Shown here piece by piece: positions 7,527 through 37,167 of a stretch of DNA of 37,167 nt. The DNA lies in assembly GCA_900314335.1 (NCBI GenBank), contig OMUV01000010.1, positions 1 to 37,167 on the forward strand. The letters run 5' to 3'. The DNA is from an uncultured Prevotellaceae bacterium. Its GTDB lineage: Bacteria > Bacteroidota > Bacteroidia > Bacteroidales > Bacteroidaceae. The notes beneath the pieces are model-generated. The model made no database searches and had not been told where the DNA came from. It was given only the letters and a program-made list of their open reading frames with translations. The number at the start of each line of letters is the position of its first letter. Positions within the stretch are counted from its first letter, which is position 1. A program made the position numbers and the translations under genes.

Positions 7527-10500
7527 ATGGCTAACACGGAAGAAGAGAGGATACTGGATATAAAAGTCAGGTACGATGATGCTATCAAGGCCATTGCCAA
7601 CTACAAAGCCAAGATAGATACGCTCAAAGCGGCTGAGAAAGAGCTGGGCAAGGAGGTGCGTAACGGCCAAATCACGATGGGCGAATACAATAAGTCCATA
7701 GCCGCCAACGATGCAGTCATGACGCAGTACAAAGACAACATGAGAGTGCTGCGTAAGGAGCTGCAAAACAACATACGCCAAGAGCAGGAGATGGAGGGCT
7801 CATTGAAGCAGCTTAGGGCTGAGCTGAGCAATGCCACTAAGGCCTACGATGAGTTATCTCGCTCTGAGCGTAACGGTGCAAAAGGTAATGAGCTACAGCA
7901 GCACATCAAGGATATTACAAAGGAGCTGAAGGGCGCAGAGGAAGCCACAGACCGCTTTTATCGCAATGTAGGTAACTACAAAAACAGCATTGCAGAAGCC
8001 CTCACTGGTAACAGTCAGTTTGCTTCATCACTGCTTAAATTATCGCAGGATGGTGGCGGCGTACAGGGGCTTTTCTCCAACATCACGGGCAGCGTCAAAG
8101 CGTTTGGCACGGCGCTGATGGGGCTGCTGGCTAACCCTATATTTCTTGGTATTGCTGGTATAGCGGGCGCAGGAGCGGCGTTCAAGTGGTGGTATGGCTA
8201 CAATGACGGACTTATCAAGGCAAGCAAACTTACTTCAAGCTTCACTGGCACGCAGGGCGCCGAGATGAAGACTTTGAGAAGCGAGATACAGGCCGTGGCT
8301 GATACGTTCGGGCTTGACTTCTCCGAGACACTAAAGACCGCCAATGCACTTGTTCAGAATTACGGCTTGTCGTGGCAGGATGCCATCTCTAAAGTCAAGG
8401 ACGGCCTGTTGATGGGTGGTTCAATCTTGCCCGAATACTCGCAGTATATACAGCAGTATGCTGGTGCGTTTAAGGACCTAGGCATTAATGCTAATCAGCT
8501 GGTGGGCGTGATGACGCAAATCGGCAAGTCGGGTATTAACGCCAACACCGCCCTACAGTCAATCAACAGAGGCGGCTATAGTTTGCAGAAGATGTCGGCG
8601 ACACTCAAAAAGGATTTGGAGGCTGCTGGCATTGATGCGGATGATCTAAGCAAACGCATACAGTCAGGGCAGGTCACTACTATACAGGCTATGCAGGAGG
8701 TTACGCGGAAGCTGGAGAAACAGGGCGTAACATCAAAAAATACAGCTGTTGTCATGCAGGACTTGTTCGGCAAAGGAGCTATCAACCTCGGCTCTCAGTT
8801 CCTGAAAGTACTTAACAACATAGGCACTGGCATAGACCAAATCAAGAGCAAGGCAAGCGAGACACAGAAGCTGCGTGATGCTACTATTAAGAAACAATCT
8901 GAGCTTAACAACACCGTTGCGGCGATGTTTGACATGACAGGCGGCGGCTTTGAGAAGATGAAAGCTCAGATGAAATATGTAGCAGTTAATTCGCTGCTAT
9001 CTATTGCGAAGGCTGTTGTGCGTGTTATCAACTATTTCATCGACTGGTATAATGAAAGCACGCTTGTGCGTACGCTGGTACAGGGCATTGCAACAGACTT
9101 CAAACTGCTTTGGAACACTGTTAAGGTGGTGTTTAACCTGATTATTGATGCAGTCAAGGGCGTAGGCCGTCAGCTCAAAGGTATGGCTGACATTGTTGAG
9201 GGCATAGTGACTCTGTCGTTCGATAAAATCAAGCAGGGCTTCTCTGCAATAGGCAGTAATATAGGCAAGACCTTTAAGGAGGGGCTGGGCGATGTTAAGG
9301 CTTTTGTCACATCCTCGGCCAAGGACGTAGTGGACGGCATTAACAATGTCTTCGGTAAGAACAAAATCAAGCACATTGAGGTACCTGTAAGCGGAGAAAA
9401 CACGTCTCCGTTGGCTCTGACTGCCTCAAATGTCGGAGGTAGCACAACAGGTAGCAGCGAGGCTAAAAGTGGCTCTGAGGGCAAAAACAGTAAAAATAAC
9501 TCGGCAGCTAAGCAGGTTGAAGAGCAGGCTAAGGCTGAGCGCGAGGCTATGCAAAAGGCACAGGAGCTACTTATCAAGCTCATAGATGATAACTTTGAAC
9601 AGCGCCGAGCTGCTATCAACGCCAATTATGACAAGCAAATCAATGACATCAAGGAGAAAATCGACAAAGGCACAAATCTCACAGCCAACACTGTGCAGGC
9701 CTACTATTCACAGATAGGGTCACTGGAACAGTTACGCGATCGAGAGCTCACGGCCCTCAAAGAGGAGGAAATAAGGAAGCAGGTTGAACAGGAGAACCGC
9801 CGCATATCTTTACTGCTGGATGCGGCCAAGAAGGGCAGCGAGGATGAGAAAAATCTAAAACTCGAACAGCTTAAAAACCAAGAGCAACTTGACCTTGCGA
9901 GCGCCGAGAATGAAATACACAACAAAGAGCAGCTGGAAGAGATGAAGCTGGCTATACAGAAGTCGTATGCATCCAAGAGGGAGCAGGTAGAGATAGCTTC
10001 GCAAAAAGCCGCGCAGGAGGCGCAGTTGACAGCCATACAGGACGAGTATAGTCAGAAGATTAATGCAGCACGAGACAATGAGCTCACACAGTTGCAGCTA
10101 AAAATGGAGCAGCGCAAGGCCATATTAGACATGGCTCAGCAGCAGGAAGATGAGAGCATAGAAGCTTTCAACGCCCGCAAGCTACGACTGGAGGAAGACT
10201 ATCAATCATCATTACAGGCTGTGCAGGAGAAGCAGCTGGAGGTTGAGAAGGCAAAGGCAAGTGTAATTACGAGCCTGTTTAGTGGGCTGAGTGACGTGGC
10301 AGACGCATTTGGCGAGAACTCTAAGACACTGGCACGCGCAAGCAAGGTGCTGGCTTTGGGAGAAATTGCAGTAAGCAGCGGCGTGGCCGTGGCTCAAGGT
10401 ATAAAGCAGGCGCAGAGTGTTCCATTTCCTGAAAACATAGCCGCAATAGCTACGACCGTATCAACAATTCTGAGCGGTATTGCTTCTGCAATAAAGACTG

Positions 10501-10829
10501 TGAAATCCGCTAAGTTTGCGCGAGGTGGCTATGTTAGCGGTGCTGGTAGCGGCACTTCTGACAGCATACCTGCAAGGCTGAGCAATGGGGAGAGTGTCAT
10601 GACGGCTTCTGCTACGTCATTATTCGCCCCCGCGCTAAGTGCATTTAATCAGTTGGGCGGCGGCGTGCCTATCATAGTCAATAGCCCTCAGCAACAGCTT
10701 GGAGGGGAGTTTATAGCAGCCGCCGTAGCGCGTGGCATGCAGATGTCTCCGCGTCCTGTGGTGTCCGTAGAAGAGATAAGCGACACCAAGAAGCGCATTG
10801 AGACAATTGAAAATATATCTATGATATGA
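7527..10829 (+). CDS. Phage tail tape measure protein (1100 aa)
   Basis: It is the longest gene in the window. Charged coiled coil occupies residues about 1-150. A hydrophobic stretch around 190-225 (LMGLLANPIFLGIAGIAGAG) is followed by a tape-measure-like domain about 240-430 (TFGLDFSETLKTANALVQN, MTQIGKSGINANTALQ). A long second coiled coil covers about 660-930. The C-terminal part contains FARGGYVSGAGSGTSDSIPARLSNGES, the Gly-rich segment typical of tape measure ends. The protein sets tail length and is threaded through the tail tube; a siphovirus-like tail well over 100 nm is expected. A strong AAGGAGG precedes the ATG at 7527. Confidence 0.9.
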   Translation: MANTEEERILDIKVRYDDAIKAIANYKAKIDTLKAAEKELGKEVRNGQITMGEYNKSIAANDAVMTQYKDNMRVLRKELQNNIRQEQEMEGSLKQLRAELSNATKAYDELSRSERNGAKGNELQQHIKDITKELKGAEEATDRFYRNVGNYKNSIAEALTGNSQFASSLLKLSQDGGGVQGLFSNITGSVKAFGTALMGLLANPIFLGIAGIAGAGAAFKWWYGYNDGLIKASKLTSSFTGTQGAEMKTLRSEIQAVADTFGLDFSETLKTANALVQNYGLSWQDAISKVKDGLLMGGSILPEYSQYIQQYAGAFKDLGINANQLVGVMTQIGKSGINANTALQSINRGGYSLQKMSATLKKDLEAAGIDADDLSKRIQSGQVTTIQAMQEVTRKLEKQGVTSKNTAVVMQDLFGKGAINLGSQFLKVLNNIGTGIDQIKSKASETQKLRDATIKKQSELNNTVAAMFDMTGGGFEKMKAQMKYVAVNSLLSIAKAVVRVINYFIDWYNESTLVRTLVQGIATDFKLLWNTVKVVFNLIIDAVKGVGRQLKGMADIVEGIVTLSFDKIKQGFSAIGSNIGKTFKEGLGDVKAFVTSSAKDVVDGINNVFGKNKIKHIEVPVSGENTSPLALTASNVGGSTTGSSEAKSGSEGKNSKNNSAAKQVEEQAKAEREAMQKAQELLIKLIDDNFEQRRAAINANYDKQINDIKEKIDKGTNLTANTVQAYYSQIGSLEQLRDRELTALKEEEIRKQVEQENRRISLLLDAAKKGSEDEKNLKLEQLKNQEQLDLASAENEIHNKEQLEEMKLAIQKSYASKREQVEIASQKAAQEAQLTAIQDEYSQKINAARDNELTQLQLKMEQRKAILDMAQQQEDESIEAFNARKLRLEEDYQSSLQAVQEKQLEVEKAKASVITSLFSGLSDVADAFGENSKTLARASKVLALGEIAVSSGVAVAQGIKQAQSVPFPENIAAIATTVSTILSGIASAIKTVKSAKFARGGYVSGAGSGTSDSIPARLSNGESVMTASATSLFAPALSAFNQLGGGVPIIVNSPQQQLGGEFIAAAVARGMQMSPRPVVSVEEISDTKKRIETIENISMI

Positions 10830-11082: not shown

Positions 11083-11162
11083 GCCGTCTGAGCGCGTTTT
11101 GTTTTGCTGGTGGTTAGCTATAGGTATGGCAGCAAGATAAACGCTCAGACGGCTTTATTTTT
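11083..11162 (+). terminator. Large-loop terminator after the tail operon
   Basis: GCCGTCTGAGCG (11083-11094) is a perfect inverted match of CGCTCAGACGGC (11142-11153) and is followed by TTTATTTTT. The 12-bp stem closes a 47-base loop that contains no convincing gene. It ends the terminase/tail operon and separates it from the head operon. The unusually long loop could hold a second regulatory fold. Confidence 0.7.
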
Positions 11163-11241
11163 GATTTTGTCATTACATCAGGGTAAATTCTTTCGTGAAT
11201 TTACATTTGTTTACATTCGCGCTGTATATATTACTCATCAT

Positions 11242-11334
11242 CATTATCATTTACATTATCATTATCATATAGGGCCACTGGGTTATTTGGGTTTTTGGGT
11301 TTTTCGCGAAAACCCACTGGGTTATTTGGGTTTT
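11242..11334 (-). repeat. 93-bp perfect inverted copy of a segment of the replication gene
   Basis: Read on the minus strand this stretch equals 34474-34566 base for base (93 of 93). It carries two 21-bp direct repeats, the dyad GGGTTTTCGCGAAAAACCC, and the beginning of an AT-rich tract. Homology continues for seven more bases (11235-11241) if a 12-bp in-frame insertion at 34567-34578 in the gene copy is skipped. It lies outside any gene here, whereas the other copy is coding. See the matching entry at 34474. Confidence 0.97.
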
Positions 11335-11450
11335 GGTGACTACGCATGCAGACGACACTTCGGAAAAGTGAAGTGGAATATGTGTTTATGCTATAATCGC
11401 AATTTTCACAAATAGATATTTTTGCAGTGTAATAAACACCGCAAGAAAGC

Positions 11451-12707
11451 ATGGCTGTACTAAAAATTTACAATGACATAACGACTGAGGCAGACAAGAA
11501 AGCCGCTCAGTTTTGGGGAGACGTGGAGGGCGTATGTTTCAAAGACATTGACAGCTTCATTGAGTCAATGCCAAAGGCTGACAAGACCATTGACATACGG
11601 CTACATTGCGATGGCGGCTCATGCTTGGAGGGATGGGCTATCTATGACCGTCTGCGTGCTACTGGTTTCGAAATTTCCGCAACCGTGGAGGGCAACGCTG
11701 CAAGCATGGCTACAGTGATACTAATGGCAGCCCCTAAGGAGAGGCGGCGTGCCTACAGAAGCGCACAGATCTGCGTGCATAATCCGTGGATATGTCCGTG
11801 GGCGCTGGGGGACGCTGTTAATGCCGATGACCTGCAGAAGTATGCTGACGACCTGCGTAGGGAGCAGAACAAAATGGTTGACTTGTATGTAGACCGTTGT
11901 GGCTGTGACCGTGACGAGATACAAGCCCTCATGAATGAGGACAAGGATATTGACGTAGACGAAGCTCTATCGCTGGGTATCATCGGCGAGATTATAGAGC
12001 CCGCAAGCGCTAAGAAAAAGACTATTACTATTGGCTCAACTCATAATAACAAAAACTCAAAAGCAATGACAAAGACAAGCAAAGACAAAGACGGGAAAGT
12101 CGAAGTCAAGCAAAGCTGGCTTGATAAGGTGCTGGCTAAGTTCGGCAAAAAGTCAATTGAAGAGGTTACTTTCGGCATGGACTTAAATACAGCTGACGGG
12201 CAGACCCTTACTGTAGAACGTGACGAGGGAGAGCCCCAAGTGGGCGATACAGCTTCTCCCGATGGAGAATTCACAATGCCCGACGGCAAGACTATTGTCG
12301 TAAAGGACGGCGTGATAACCGAGATTAAGCCCGCAGAGCAGGGCTCTGATGATGACAACACCAACGAGCCTGCTAATGATGACCTTCAGAAGCAGGTGGA
12401 TGACCTTACTGCTGAGAACAACAAACTCAAAGATGAAGTTGCTGAGCTTCAGCAGAAACTCGCGGATGCGCAGAGCAAAAAGAAAGATGACCTGCGTATC
12501 CTCAATGCTGTTAAAATGGCTGGTGGCGAGCAGGCACTGGCAAAACTCGCTTCAACCTATAAGCCGTCAGGAAGAAAAGTGAGTGGCAAGAATGTGAGCG
12601 CCGCAAGCGGCGACAGAGAGGAGATTACCGCTATGAGAGCGGAGATAGAAGCAAGACGGGCTGGCACTTTTAAGCCCGCGGATAAGACGGCAAAAAGTAA
12701 CAAGTAA
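11451..12707 (+). CDS. ClpP-like head maturation protease with C-terminal scaffold region
   Basis: This 418-residue protein has an N-terminal ClpP/crotonase-fold protease. GNAASMATVILMAAP supplies the nucleophile S85, and ICVHNPW the histidine H110; the acid is probably an Asp near 161-170. Residues about 200-310 are polar and low in complexity, 311-345 form a coiled coil (LQKQVDDLTAENNKLKDEV), and the tail is basic. Such fusions cleave scaffold and capsid during prohead maturation, and the coiled part acts as scaffold. It lies 17 bases before the major capsid gene. Met205 follows an A-rich stretch and could serve as an internal start for free scaffold. Confidence 0.85.
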   Translation: MAVLKIYNDITTEADKKAAQFWGDVEGVCFKDIDSFIESMPKADKTIDIRLHCDGGSCLEGWAIYDRLRATGFEISATVEGNAASMATVILMAAPKERRRAYRSAQICVHNPWICPWALGDAVNADDLQKYADDLRREQNKMVDLYVDRCGCDRDEIQALMNEDKDIDVDEALSLGIIGEIIEPASAKKKTITIGSTHNNKNSKAMTKTSKDKDGKVEVKQSWLDKVLAKFGKKSIEEVTFGMDLNTADGQTLTVERDEGEPQVGDTASPDGEFTMPDGKTIVVKDGVITEIKPAEQGSDDDNTNEPANDDLQKQVDDLTAENNKLKDEVAELQQKLADAQSKKKDDLRILNAVKMAGGEQALAKLASTYKPSGRKVSGKNVSAASGDREEITAMRAEIEARRAGTFKPADKTAKSNK

Positions 12708-24384: not shown

Positions 24385-24451
24385 GCGGTTAAAACGTTAA
24401 AGGATTAGGGGTAAGCGTTAAAGGATTAGGGGGTAAAACGTTAAATATTTA
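24385..24451 (+). repeat. Tandem CGTTAAAGGATTAGGGG repeats
   Basis: The unit CGTTAAAGGATTAGGGG(G)TAA occurs at 24395-24415 and 24416-24438. A third partial unit, CGTTAAAT, starts at 24439, and a degenerate GCGGTTAAAA at 24385. The 21-23-base period is close to two helical turns. The transposon inserted just behind the third partial unit. They may be binding sites for a regulator of the gene downstream. Confidence 0.65.
24444..24451. repeat. Target-site duplication, left copy
   Basis: AATATTTA directly precedes the left end of the transposon and is repeated exactly at 27778-27785. The length of 8 bp is that expected for IS1595-family insertion. Confidence 0.9.
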
Positions 24452-24481
24452 CGGAATTACCTACTTTAATCTTGCGTAATT
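24452..24481. repeat. Left inverted repeat of the IS1595-family transposon
   Basis: CGGAATTACCTACTTTAATC and on; matches the complement of 27748-27777 except at positions 9, 24 and 25. Confidence 0.9.
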
Positions 24482-27747: not shown

Positions 27748-27777
27748 AATTAAACAAGATTAAAGTAGATAATTCCG
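27748..27777. repeat. Right inverted repeat of the IS1595-family transposon
   Basis: Its complement starts CGGAATTATCTACTTTAATC; 27 of 30 positions equal the left repeat. Confidence 0.9.
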
Positions 27778-27785
27778 AATATTTA
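27778..27785. repeat. Target-site duplication, right copy
   Basis: AATATTTA, identical to 24444-24451 at the other end of the transposon. Confidence 0.9.
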
Positions 27786-27792
27786 TATTGTC

Positions 27793-33002: not shown

Positions 33003-33035
33003 GCCCCTCACGGCGGACATACCGCCGTGAGGGGC
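33003..33035 (+). terminator. Long GC-rich hairpin between recombination genes
   Basis: GCCCCTCACGGCGG (33003-33016) and CCGCCGTGAGGGGC (33022-33035) form a perfect 14-bp stem with the loop ACATA, followed by TTAATTAAT. The T tract is weak. It lies between the annealing and exonuclease genes and directly before the leader motif, so it may act as an attenuator or protect transcript ends. Confidence 0.7.
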
Positions 33036-33068
33036 TTAATTAATCTTCAACAACAAGAGACAAAAATT

Positions 33069-34037
33069 ATGAGTTGCACAATCATTAGACCGCAAGACCG
33101 CTACGAGTGGTTAAAGCTGAGGGGCTACGGAATAGGCTCCTCAGAGGTAGGCACAATATTAGGGCTTAACCCATTTGAGACGCCCTATCAATTGTGGCGC
33201 AGAAAAAAGGGCATGGACGCCCCGAAAGAGGAAAACTTTGCAATGCGCGCAGGCCACTACTTGGAGGACGCCGTGAGCCGCTTCTACAGTGATGCCACTG
33301 GTCGCAAGATAATCAAGCGCAGTGCAGGCGACTGGCTGATAGTAGACAACGATAAGCAGTACCTACGCGTATCACCTGACCGCATTTTTTGGATAGACCC
33401 CGAAGGCAAGCACAATGCTGCTAATAAAGGGATTTGCGAGTGCAAGACAACGCAGCTGGATGTAGACGAGGACGACCTGCCTAAGCACTGGTTCTGCCAG
33501 TTACAGTACCAGCTGGGAGTATCTGAGATGAGCTATGGAGCACTGGCATGGCTGACGCAGGGCCGCAAGTTTGGCTACAAGGATATAGAGTTTGACAAGG
33601 ACTTCTACGAGTGGATGGTAGCTGAGGTAACTGACTTTTGGAACACCTACATCATAGGCGACAAAGAACCGCTTGCAGAAACGGTGTCTGATGTGCTTTT
33701 GAAGAGCCCGCGACACATAGCAGGCAAAGTAGTAAAGGGTGGCTCAGAAGTGCTGGCAGTGTACAATAAGTTGAAAGCAGTCAACGAGCAGTATGCGACC
33801 CTCAAGGAGCAGAAAGACGAGCTTGAAGGCGAGATGAAAATGGCTATAGGTGACGCTGAGGCTATTGTTACCGATGACCCGTTCAGCGAGGATGGGGAGA
33901 TGACGCTTGCAACGTGGAAAGCCCCGAAGCCGTCCATTAAGTTTGACGACAAGAAATTCAAGGAAGACCATGAAGAGCTCTATGATGCTTATTGCCACGA
34001 GGTACAAGGAGCAAGGCGCTTCCTGCTTAAACAATGA
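33069..34037 (+). CDS. YqaJ-like viral recombinase exonuclease
   Basis: The 322-residue product has the lambda-exonuclease/YqaJ fold. GYGIGSSEVGTILGLNPFETPYQLW (residues 20-43) contains the G-I-G-S-S-E motif; E66 (GHYLEDAV) and D104 (VSPDR) together with E124-x-K126 (CECKTT) form the PD-(D/E)xK site. It digests one strand from DNA ends to give single-strand overhangs for the annealing protein upstream. The C-terminal third (EQYATLKEQKDELEGEMKMAI) is a coiled coil. I start at ATG 33069 after the leader motif. It overlaps the next gene by four bases. Confidence 0.88.
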   Translation: MSCTIIRPQDRYEWLKLRGYGIGSSEVGTILGLNPFETPYQLWRRKKGMDAPKEENFAMRAGHYLEDAVSRFYSDATGRKIIKRSAGDWLIVDNDKQYLRVSPDRIFWIDPEGKHNAANKGICECKTTQLDVDEDDLPKHWFCQLQYQLGVSEMSYGALAWLTQGRKFGYKDIEFDKDFYEWMVAEVTDFWNTYIIGDKEPLAETVSDVLLKSPRHIAGKVVKGGSEVLAVYNKLKAVNEQYATLKEQKDELEGEMKMAIGDAEAIVTDDPFSEDGEMTLATWKAPKPSIKFDDKKFKEDHEELYDAYCHEVQGARRFLLKQ

Positions 34038-34234
34038 AAGCAATGTATACGATTAGCAACAGTCAGTTTAACCTGATACTTGAAGCGCTGCAAGACTATG
34101 CGTCTACGAAGCAGCCTATCAACCTGCGTGACGAGAACCGCGTGCAGCTTGTGACAAAACTGTTGAAACAGATGCGCAGGAAGCAGCCATTTAACAAACG
34201 TGATCTAAAGAAATTAGAGTATGCAACGAGATAG
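34034..34234 (+). CDS. Small hypothetical early protein (66 aa)
   Basis: ATGA overlap with the exonuclease and a 14-base overlap with the replication gene make it part of the operon. The product, MKAMYTISNSQFNLILEALQ at the start, is helical and basic, with KQPINLRDENRVQLVTKLLKQMRRKQPFNKRDLKKLEYATR. No known motif. It may bind DNA or a partner of the recombination genes. Confidence 0.6.
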   Translation: MKAMYTISNSQFNLILEALQDYASTKQPINLRDENRVQLVTKLLKQMRRKQPFNKRDLKKLEYATR

Positions 34235-34856
34235 CTTTATCTTCTACAGAGACTGGGCCGATGCTATTAGCCCTCTCAGCCCCTCTGAGCGCCTTTCAGT
34301 CTATGATGCGATAATAGCCTACTCCTTTGAGGGAAAGGCGCCTGGCGGCCTTTCTGACGTTGTTGCAATGGCAATGAGGTTTATCCTGTTGCAACTGCAA
34401 CGCGACGCAGACAAGTACAGCCGTATCTGCGAGAGAAATCAAAATAATGGGGCAAAAGGAGGTCGCCCGAAGAAAAACCCAAATAACCCAGTGGGTTTTC
34501 GCGAAAAACCCAAAAACCCAAATAACCCAGTGGCCCTATATGATAATGATAATGTAAATGATAATGGTAATGTTAATGATGATGATATAATAGACACAAC
34601 AAGCCACGACCAAGAATATATTGATGAGCTCATACAGGATACCTACTGGCAAGATGTGATGTGTATGAAGCTACATATCTCCAAAGATGAGCTTGCAGCG
34701 AGCCTCAGGGAATTCAAGGAAAATGTAGGGCTTGATAAGTCTAATCATAAAGACCGAGCAGACTTTCGAAACCACGTGCGCAACTGGCTTGCAAAACGCA
34801 AGGAAATGAAAGCAACAGCGGTTAATACCAACTCAGTAAATGATATATGGAAATGA
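34221..34856 (+). CDS. DUF6291-like replication protein (DnaD/helicase-loading type)
   Basis: The N-terminus matches DUF6291-type phage proteins (FIFYRDWADAISPLSPSERLSVYDAIIAYSF, then VAMAMRFILLQLQRDADKYSRICERN and GAKGGRPKK). A low-complexity linker follows (NPNNPVGFREKPKNPNNP, then YDNDNVNDNGNVNDDD). The C-terminal domain (VMCMKLHISKDELAASLREFKENV, FRNHVRNWLAKRKE) resembles the domain that binds helicase or ssDNA in such proteins. The AAA+ loader follows with a 10-base overlap. The linker DNA carries repeats and an AT-rich tract, like the origin within lambda O, and is copied in inverted form at 11242-11334. Confidence 0.75.
   Translation: MQRDSFIFYRDWADAISPLSPSERLSVYDAIIAYSFEGKAPGGLSDVVAMAMRFILLQLQRDADKYSRICERNQNNGAKGGRPKKNPNNPVGFREKPKNPNNPVALYDNDNVNDNGNVNDDDIIDTTSHDQEYIDELIQDTYWQDVMCMKLHISKDELAASLREFKENVGLDKSNHKDRADFRNHVRNWLAKRKEMKATAVNTNSVNDIWK
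34474..34566 (+). repeat. Origin-like segment inside the replication gene, duplicated at 11242-11334
   Basis: This segment encodes the NPNNP...DNDNVND linker. It has two identical 21-bp repeats (34474-34494 and 34513-34533, core AAAACCCAAATAACCCAGTGG), 39 bases apart, a dyad GGGTTTTCGCGAAAAACCC between them, and AT-rich DNA behind them (34534-34600). Iterons plus an AT-rich side inside the initiator gene are the layout of the lambda origin. The full 93 bases recur in inverted orientation in a non-coding gap 23 kb away. A 12-bp in-frame insertion at 34567-34578 separates a further seven matching bases. Confidence 0.85.
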
Positions 34857-35554
34857 ATGATATTAGCAAAATTGTAAAAGTGATAAACATGTACGGCGCA
34901 AGCCAAATCAAAAGACTGAAATATAACTACACGTTACCTGCGGTTATGAATGCTGTTGTGCGGATAGGCAAGTCACGATACAGCGGATTCGTTATTGACG
35001 AGGACAACCGCTTTGCTTATGAGAATGCTGTAAAATGGCTGATGGGCGACCCTACGATGCAGGCTATCAACTGCGTCACTGGCGAGGTTACTCAAGGCAG
35101 GCTTGATGCTGGGCTCTATATAGCTGGCAACACGGGCACGGGCAAAACGTGGCTGCTTAATATCCTCAGCACGCTTTCTTCGGTGTGCGGTATTGAGTAT
35201 TTCGATGGATGCGAGAAGGCAAAATTGCGCTGGGAAAACTACAGATGCGATGAGATGTGCGCCTACTATGCCCTGAATGGCGGGTATCTCAAATACACGA
35301 AGAGCAAGATAGTATGCTTCCACGATTTGGGAAGCGAGCCGACTGAGAGCTGTTATATGGGTAATAAGTGTAATGTGCTGCGCCGAGTGCTTGAAAGCAG
35401 GGGTGATAACTACACTGCCATTACCCACTTTAGCAGCAATTATCCTATTAATCACGAGATAATCAAGCAGCATTACGGTGATCGCGCATATAGCAGACTG
35501 CTGGGCATGTGCAACTATCTGACGATGCGAGGCGCTGACAGACGCATAAGATAA
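34847..35554 (+). CDS. DnaC-like AAA+ helicase loader
   Basis: The 235-residue protein has Walker A GNTGTGKT (94-101), Walker B IVCFHDLG (155-162; the acid pair is H-D rather than D-E/D), and a sensor-1 like THFSSNYP (193-200). It is the AAA+ core of DnaC/IstB-type loaders that place the replicative helicase on the origin. It overlaps the DUF6291-like gene, with which it probably works. The small size and absence of a nuclease or ring-helicase domain argue against a full helicase. The final part, CNYLTMRGADRRIR, is basic. Confidence 0.85.
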   Translation: MEMNDISKIVKVINMYGASQIKRLKYNYTLPAVMNAVVRIGKSRYSGFVIDEDNRFAYENAVKWLMGDPTMQAINCVTGEVTQGRLDAGLYIAGNTGTGKTWLLNILSTLSSVCGIEYFDGCEKAKLRWENYRCDEMCAYYALNGGYLKYTKSKIVCFHDLGSEPTESCYMGNKCNVLRRVLESRGDNYTAITHFSSNYPINHEIIKQHYGDRAYSRLLGMCNYLTMRGADRRIR

Positions 35555-36089: not shown

Positions 36090-36362
36090 ATGAATAAAGC
36101 TATCAATACAATTCATTTAGTCCTTCGCTACAAGTGGTATGACATGATAGCCAGTGGAGAGAAGACGGAGGAATATCGGAATATTCAGACGTGGAAGAAT
36201 CGGTTTGGAGATAACATCAAATACGTTACTTTCCACAGGGGTTATAGTGCAGTAACCATGACATACAGAATCAAGAGCGTTTCAGTCGGAATAGGGAAAA
36301 CCGCATGGGGCGCACTTGAAGACAAAGAAGTATTAATCATAAAATTAGGAGACAGAATATGA
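36090..36362 (+). CDS. ASCH/PUA-like domain protein (90 aa)
   Basis: The product has the ASCH signature near the start: HLVLRYKWYDMIASGEKTEEYR, with G-E-K-x-x-E-x-R as in the family, then VTFHRGYSAVTMTYRIKSVSVGIG and a short end EVLIIKLGDRI. ASCH domains are RNA- or nucleotide-binding beta-barrels. In Bacteroidales phages they occur in early operons. The stop overlaps the start of the hexapeptide-repeat gene (ATGA). Confidence 0.75.
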   Translation: MNKAINTIHLVLRYKWYDMIASGEKTEEYRNIQTWKNRFGDNIKYVTFHRGYSAVTMTYRIKSVSVGIGKTAWGALEDKEVLIIKLGDRI

Positions 36363-37167
36363 ACAAATACAGATTAAGAACGGACCTTACGAAGGTATGG
36401 GGCGACAGGACGCTCCGAGCTATTGAGGCATTGACGGACTTCGGCGACGTGAAGAAAGGCGACATCGGCGGTTACGTCGAAAAAGAAGAAAACCTAAGTC
36501 AAATTGATGATTCATGGATTTACGGTAACGCCAGAGTCTACGGTAACGCCAGAGTCCACGGTGACGCCATAGTCTCCGGTAACGCCATAGTCTACGGTAG
36601 CGCCAGGGTCTACGACGAGGCCACGGTCGGCGGTAGCGCCAAGGTGTACGGCGAGGCCATGGTCGGCGGTAGAGCCAGGGTCTACGACGAGGCCATGGTC
36701 GGCGGTAGCGCCATAGTCTACGGTAGCGCCAGGGTCTACGACGAGGCCACGGTCGGCGATAGAGCCAGGGTCTACGACGAGGCCATGGTCGGCGGTAGAG
36801 CCAAGGTCTTCGATAGTGCTTGCATATTCGGTAGCGCCATAGTCTACGGTAGCGCCAGGGTCTACGACGAGGCCACGGTCGGCGATAGAGCCAGGGTCTA
36901 CGACGAGGCCATGGTCGGCGGTAGAGCCAAGGTCTTCGATAGTGCTTGCATATTCGGTAGCGCCATAGTCTACGGTAGCGCCAGGGTCTACGGTGGAGCC
37001 AAGGTGTGCGGCGAGGCAGAGGTCAACGGCAAGGCAGAGGTCTGCGGTGGTGCTGTAATCAGACGTCTGCAAGATTATTATGTGTCGCGGAACACGTGGT
37101 CGAGCGGCAGATACTTCACGTACACACGGTCGAACAGGATGTGGAGAGTAGGATGTTTCTTAGGCAC
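36359..37167 (+). CDS. Hexapeptide-repeat left-handed beta-helix protein (cut by window end)
   Basis: It overlaps the ASCH gene by four bases and is open to the window end (269 codons plus two bases). The N-terminal part KYRLRTDLTKVWGDRTLRAIEALTDFGDVKKGDIGGYVEKEENLSQ is the cap typical of YdcK-like phage proteins. Then come hexapeptide units such as YGNARV, YGDAMV-like, GGSAKV and YDEATV, the left-handed beta-helix pattern. A 42-residue block (seven hexapeptides) is tandemly repeated, twice in full and once in part. The end, SNRMWRVGCFLG, looks like the beginning of the usual C-terminal cap. Function is unknown; it may be structural or a surface-active protein. Confidence 0.8.
   Translation, partial: MNKYRLRTDLTKVWGDRTLRAIEALTDFGDVKKGDIGGYVEKEENLSQIDDSWIYGNARVYGNARVHGDAIVSGNAIVYGSARVYDEATVGGSAKVYGEAMVGGRARVYDEAMVGGSAIVYGSARVYDEATVGDRARVYDEAMVGGRAKVFDSACIFGSAIVYGSARVYDEATVGDRARVYDEAMVGGRAKVFDSACIFGSAIVYGSARVYGGAKVCGEAEVNGKAEVCGGAVIRRLQDYYVSRNTWSSGRYFTYTRSNRMWRVGCFLG
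36704..36991 (+). repeat. 126-bp in-frame tandem repeat
   Basis: 36704-36829 and 36830-36955 are identical over 126 bases, and 36956-36991 repeats the first 36 again. The period is 42 codons, seven beta-helix rungs. Perfect identity at DNA level shows a recent expansion. Confidence 0.95.

Follow-up and report, generated by a model that had tools for sequence, protein, structure and literature searches.

An origin-like block in the linker of a phage DUF6291 gene and its exact inverted copy in the late region, a candidate second initiator site

The stretch of DNA analysed here, hereafter the window, is a whole contig of 37,167 bp (C82) from a 2.74-Mb assembly in 219 contigs, and an identical 37,167-bp record is found in IMG/VR. 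With genes for a terminase, a Clp-type head protease, an amidase, an integrase, a YqaJ exonuclease and a DnaC-like helicase loader, it represents a phage of a gut-type bacterium. No terminal overlap was found at the contig ends, and the distance between copy and source is given along the linear contig. GC skew was uninformative for the window because most genes share one strand, and no close DNA relatives were found for its first 25 kb. Imperfect inverted repeats of 40 bp (24442-24481 and 27748-27787, 83%) surround genes for an IS1595-type transposase and an N6 DNA methylase, and the segment 24442-27787 looks like a transposon with the methylase as a passenger, inserted in the phage. Near the other end of the contig, a gene that runs off its edge (36359-37165) contains about two dozen 18-bp tandem repeats with a regular VYGNARV-like hexapeptide pattern and is related to phage families of unknown function. 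The features that bear on the origin-like block and its copy are listed in Table 1.

Table 1. Positions of the origin-like block, its copy and neighbouring features in the window.
Feature	Position	Strand	Evidence
Long hairpin followed by a T-rich tail, upstream of the copy	11083..11153	+	z -6.5, DNA parameters
Two more AATGTAAA motifs outside the identical block, oriented like the copy	11200..11217	-	motif scan
Exact inverted copy of the origin-like block, in a non-coding gap	11242..11334	-	repeat search and alignment
Palindrome of the copy	11311..11323	.	only other occurrence in the window besides the source
TAnnTTTG, possible head-operon promoter	11417..11424	+	weak pattern only
Clp-type head protease gene, downstream of the copy	11451..12707	+	Pfam E 8e-25
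YqaJ-type recombination exonuclease	33027..34037	+	Pfam E 2.9e-19
Gene with DUF6291 (N-terminal) and DUF7833 (C-terminal), origin-like block in its linker	34221..34856	+	Pfam E 1.6e-25 and 1.9e-9
Origin-like module with AACCCA iterons, palindrome and AT-rich repeat tract (the exact copy covers 34474-34566)	34474..34583	+	motif analysis
13-bp palindrome AACCCAGTGGGTT	34485..34497	.	motif analysis
TGATAATG / AATGTAAA repeat tract, possible unwinding element	34540..34583	+	motif enrichment, AT content
DnaC-like helicase loader	34847..35554	+	PHROG 50 and 3277

The DUF6291 gene, designated below by its start as the 34221 gene, falls into PHROGs of unknown function and adjoins the helicase loader gene. 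Its relatives in reference phages adjoin a gene for a DnaB-like or other DNA helicase, a primase/helicase or a lambda-P-like product. Based on these neighbours and on the conserved DNA sites described below, the 34221 product is a putative replication initiator. DUF6291 is a family without a described function, and no mention of it was found in the literature searched. The structure model of the 34221 protein (mean pLDDT 77) has a well-predicted N-terminal helical domain and a linker mostly of low confidence. Foldseek returned no match to this model at E 0.001 or better, comparison of the model with 61 chains gave no Z of 5 or more, and no close relative of DUF6291 was found among solved structures. 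Because the model matches no known fold, DNA binding by the initiator is a property that we infer. The linker peptide gave no match when searched against phages.

Direct repeats, a dyad and an AT-rich side had been described for the source segment in the linker, and all are present, the AT content reaching 72% in the best 100 bp of the repeat-tract region. In such linkers the repeat-tract motifs are enriched 28- to 112-fold, and iteron and repeat motifs are about 10 to more than 100 times as dense there as elsewhere in the same loci. The 13-bp palindrome AACCCANTGGGTT occurs 35 times in non-redundant DUF6291 genes, usually followed by TGATAATG-, AATGTAAA- or GATANTGATA-type repeats, and is read in frames 0, 1 and 2 in 18, 16 and 1 cases, as NPVG-like, KPSG/KPTG-like and TQWV-like peptides, respectively. 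A wider set comprised 141 sites with palindrome and iterons in viral contigs, 110 of which were assigned by a simple rule to GGRP-type linker genes, with frame counts of 49, 56 and 5. The 31 sites outside this assignment were not counted; some are terminator-like (L489 and L534) and others may be genes missed by the rule. Since selection on the protein would be expected to hold a single frame, the occurrence of the palindrome in three frames suggests that the DNA itself is selected. Among whole viral records the palindrome was present in 15 of 24, and only once in 13 of these 15; the palindromes at both contig ends of one record (G472) probably represent a single site in a circular genome. In GGRP-type linkers of other phage genes (L308, L324, L354, L356, L361 and others), the same palindrome and iterons were also observed, again in three frames, an indication that one origin motif is common to several initiator families. 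An origin-like segment of lambda-like layout in the linker of a replication gene had been predicted, and the frame-independent palindrome, the motif enrichment and the helicase or loader neighbours strongly support this view. Three sequence features of a lambda-type embedded origin were found, namely iterons and an AT-rich tract inside a coding sequence, DNA that is conserved irrespective of the protein it encodes, and a helicase loader or helicase encoded alongside. Judged from these sequence features, the linker is very probably a replication origin within the initiator gene.

The minus strand of 11242-11334 is identical to the plus strand of 34474-34566 over 93 bp with zero mismatches, exactly as the original prediction had it. 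The repeat search drew slightly longer arms (11236-11334 and 34474-34572; 99 nt, 98%), separated by 23,139 nt, and a gapped alignment gave 93 identical bases, a 9-nt gap in the copy and weak homology over about 10-20 bases further. The gain of a 12-bp codon repeat previously ascribed to the gene was right in direction, the gene being the longer of the two, but not in size, which is better drawn as a 9-bp gap. By chance, the longest inverted match expected in a window of the same size is about 15 nt, and the best local score in Markov-simulated genomes was 16, against 95 observed. Across all 2.74 Mb of the assembly, the element was found at these two places only. From the first iteron the copied block extends to a point within the repeat tract, and the chance that both ends of a random segment fall so close to the limits of the module is about 0.0007.

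The copy lies in the late region, in a gap of 391 bp between tail and head genes, with the hairpin and its T-rich tail on one side and the Clp protease gene on the other. The DNA of this gap gave no match in the phage collection. Beyond the two sites and the two motifs flanking the copy, no AATGTAAA motif was found elsewhere in the window, a post hoc observation. The hairpin is terminator-like and may act as a terminator; it is unusually long for one and lies downstream of the tape-measure gene and a small ORF. The transcription signals around the copy comprise this strong hairpin upstream and a weak promoter-like pattern downstream, TAnnTTTG, which resembles the -7 box of Bacteroidota promoters and has 28 matches on the plus strand of the window. 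A search of the gap for sigma-70-type promoters gave none. An open minus-strand frame passing through the copy (11234-11467) gave a weak match to the DUF6291 profile (E 1e-5). A gene remnant or duplicated gene was considered and is unlikely, as homology ends within the linker on both sides and the weak profile match fits linker-only content, not a gene copy.

The closest relative of the structural module, G031, has the same genes around a gap of about 145 bp that contains neither iterons nor the copy; its tape-measure gene and small ORF are followed contiguously, in the same order as in the window, by the Clp protease and capsid genes. Iteron clusters outside the gene were then sought in 223 related loci (3.5 Mb), most of which span just 10 kb on each side of the gene, so that distant second sites may be missed. 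Besides the window, a clear non-coding cluster away from the gene was found only in L283. It lies about 8.5 kb away from the DUF6291 gene of that locus, flanked by an endolysin-like gene on one side and, on the other, by a gene taken from its sequence to encode a recombinase. Most AAACCTAA units are kept there and the intervening bases differ. The two L283 segments (1428-1516 and 10001-10741) belong to a prophage on a contig labelled Tenericutes, and the diverged second cluster has AT-rich repeats of its own. Hits directly downstream of the assigned gene end in L144, L213, L276 and L298 were taken as in-gene clusters with a mis-set frame, and a candidate in Vibrio phage 1.265.O, a loose match inside a coding gene, was judged to be due to chance. 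No convincing second site was found in 11 reference phages. In L147, a second 22-bp match that includes the palindrome lies about 600 bp upstream of the gene, and further BLAST matches to the linker were obtained in L148, L227, L237, L254, L287 and L299. The original prediction named lack of the copy in related phages as a result that would speak against it, and nearly all relatives are without the copy; it is lineage-specific, which weakens the case for a function without removing it.

Of the roles first suggested for the copy, that of a second origin or a site bound by the initiator ranks highest, having a precise precedent in the Bacillus phage SPP1 and one independent parallel in L283; the function itself is proposed by analogy. 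We hold with moderate confidence, at about an even chance, that the copy is a second initiator-binding, origin-like site that would work like the SPP1 oriR, the gene-borne module being the origin. Binding, firing and fork stalling are inferred steps of this reading. The initiator would bind the AACCCA iterons and the palindrome at 34474-34583, the AT-rich repeat tract would melt, and the DnaC-like protein would load the helicase. The gene-borne origin would fire first, after which the initiator would occupy 11242-11334, and this site would either fire late or block the oncoming fork; such a block could lead to recombination-dependent concatemer synthesis. The reading is supported by the three frames of the palindrome, the motif enrichment in linkers and the helicase or loader neighbours, by the match between block limits and module, by the two extra AATGTAAA motifs flanking the copy, and by the independent non-coding cluster in L283 and the SPP1 anatomy. 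Against it, a second site is missing from the nearest relative by structural module and from almost all DUF6291 phages, and the perfect identity would equally be expected of a very recent functionless duplication. In lambda, ectopic plasmid-borne copies of the origin interfere with normal initiation (PMC4488673), and a second copy may therefore be costly. A broader and doubtful extension is that some DUF6291 phages run two initiator sites per genome, one in the gene and one in the late region, that are kept identical by gene conversion; the inverted site, as a late origin or a programmed barrier to forks, would then govern the change to concatemer replication.

The main rival is a recent duplication without function, given the perfect match and the lack of the copy in almost all relatives. 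A template switch or annealing near the origin would have put the inverted block into the late-region gap, where it would have been tolerated and not yet have diverged; the phage has a gene for a YqaJ-type exonuclease, and such events may plausibly cluster at origins. This explanation is possible, though in our view on the unlikely side: it sits poorly with a block that spans the first iteron into the repeat tract, with similar motifs in the flanking gap beyond the identical block, and with L283, which retains most units of a diverged second site. Alternatively, the copy could be a regulatory site at which the initiator controls the head operon, or which soaks up initiator and so limits initiation, with neither firing nor a fork stop. 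Its position between the terminator-like hairpin and the first head-module gene, with TAnnTTTG downstream, agrees with such control, and the effect of plasmid-borne extra origins on lambda (PMC4488673) with titration. A purely regulatory role nevertheless appears quite unlikely: the copy includes the repeat tract, for which mere binding would have no use, the promoter match is a weak pattern, and in related head modules the same position is used with no copy present.

No supporting evidence was obtained for an antisense RNA source or a 23-kb inversion, both of which had been put forward earlier, and each is highly improbable. Inverted orientation and 93-bp identity would in principle permit recombination between the copies, but an inversion would break the initiator gene at the linker and part the two domains of its product, the gene order on either side of the copy is as in G031, and neither a recombinase nor a site for one was found at the copy. 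Transcription of the plus strand through the copy would give RNA complementary to the initiator mRNA, so that late read-through transcripts would be antisense to the 34221 gene; against this, the terminator-like hairpin lies directly upstream, the gap has neither a sigma-70-type promoter nor an Rfam match, and the block falls on a DNA module that is conserved among relatives. Least credible of all is an assembly artefact, for which the 219 contigs of the assembly could be invoked, since the flank has related motifs of its own and the contiguous genes of G031, in the same order on both sides of the copy, make a false join unlikely.

A palindrome that ignores the reading frame provides a sequence signature for the likely origin of the widespread DUF6291 initiator family, and could be used to find origins in metagenomic phages. 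If the copy is a second initiator site, the need for such a site becomes testable in a second system besides SPP1. The best supported of the several explanations is that two initiator sites, one of them within the initiator gene, as known from SPP1, occur here with an undescribed initiator family. In lambdoid phages, iterons and an AT-rich tract lie in the middle of gene O, with the loader gene downstream (PMC7466680). The window shares this embedded layout and downstream loader gene, whereas lambdoid phages have one origin and another iteron sequence, and the likeness is one of layout. The inhibition described in lambda also involved extra copies on a host plasmid, while in the window the copy is part of the phage itself. 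The SPP1 initiator gp38 binds two sites, oriL in its own gene 38 and oriR in a late segment with transcription signals on both sides; stalling of forks at oriR has been proposed as the trigger for the change to concatemer replication (PMC6316719, PMC3485210). The window likewise has a probable origin in the initiator gene and a second site of the same layout that is non-coding, distant (23 kb) and in the late region; both systems have direct repeats and an AT-rich region at the two sites and a helicase loader beside the initiator. In contrast to SPP1, the host belongs to a different phylum and the two sites are identical and inverted; the likeness drawn here is one of layout.
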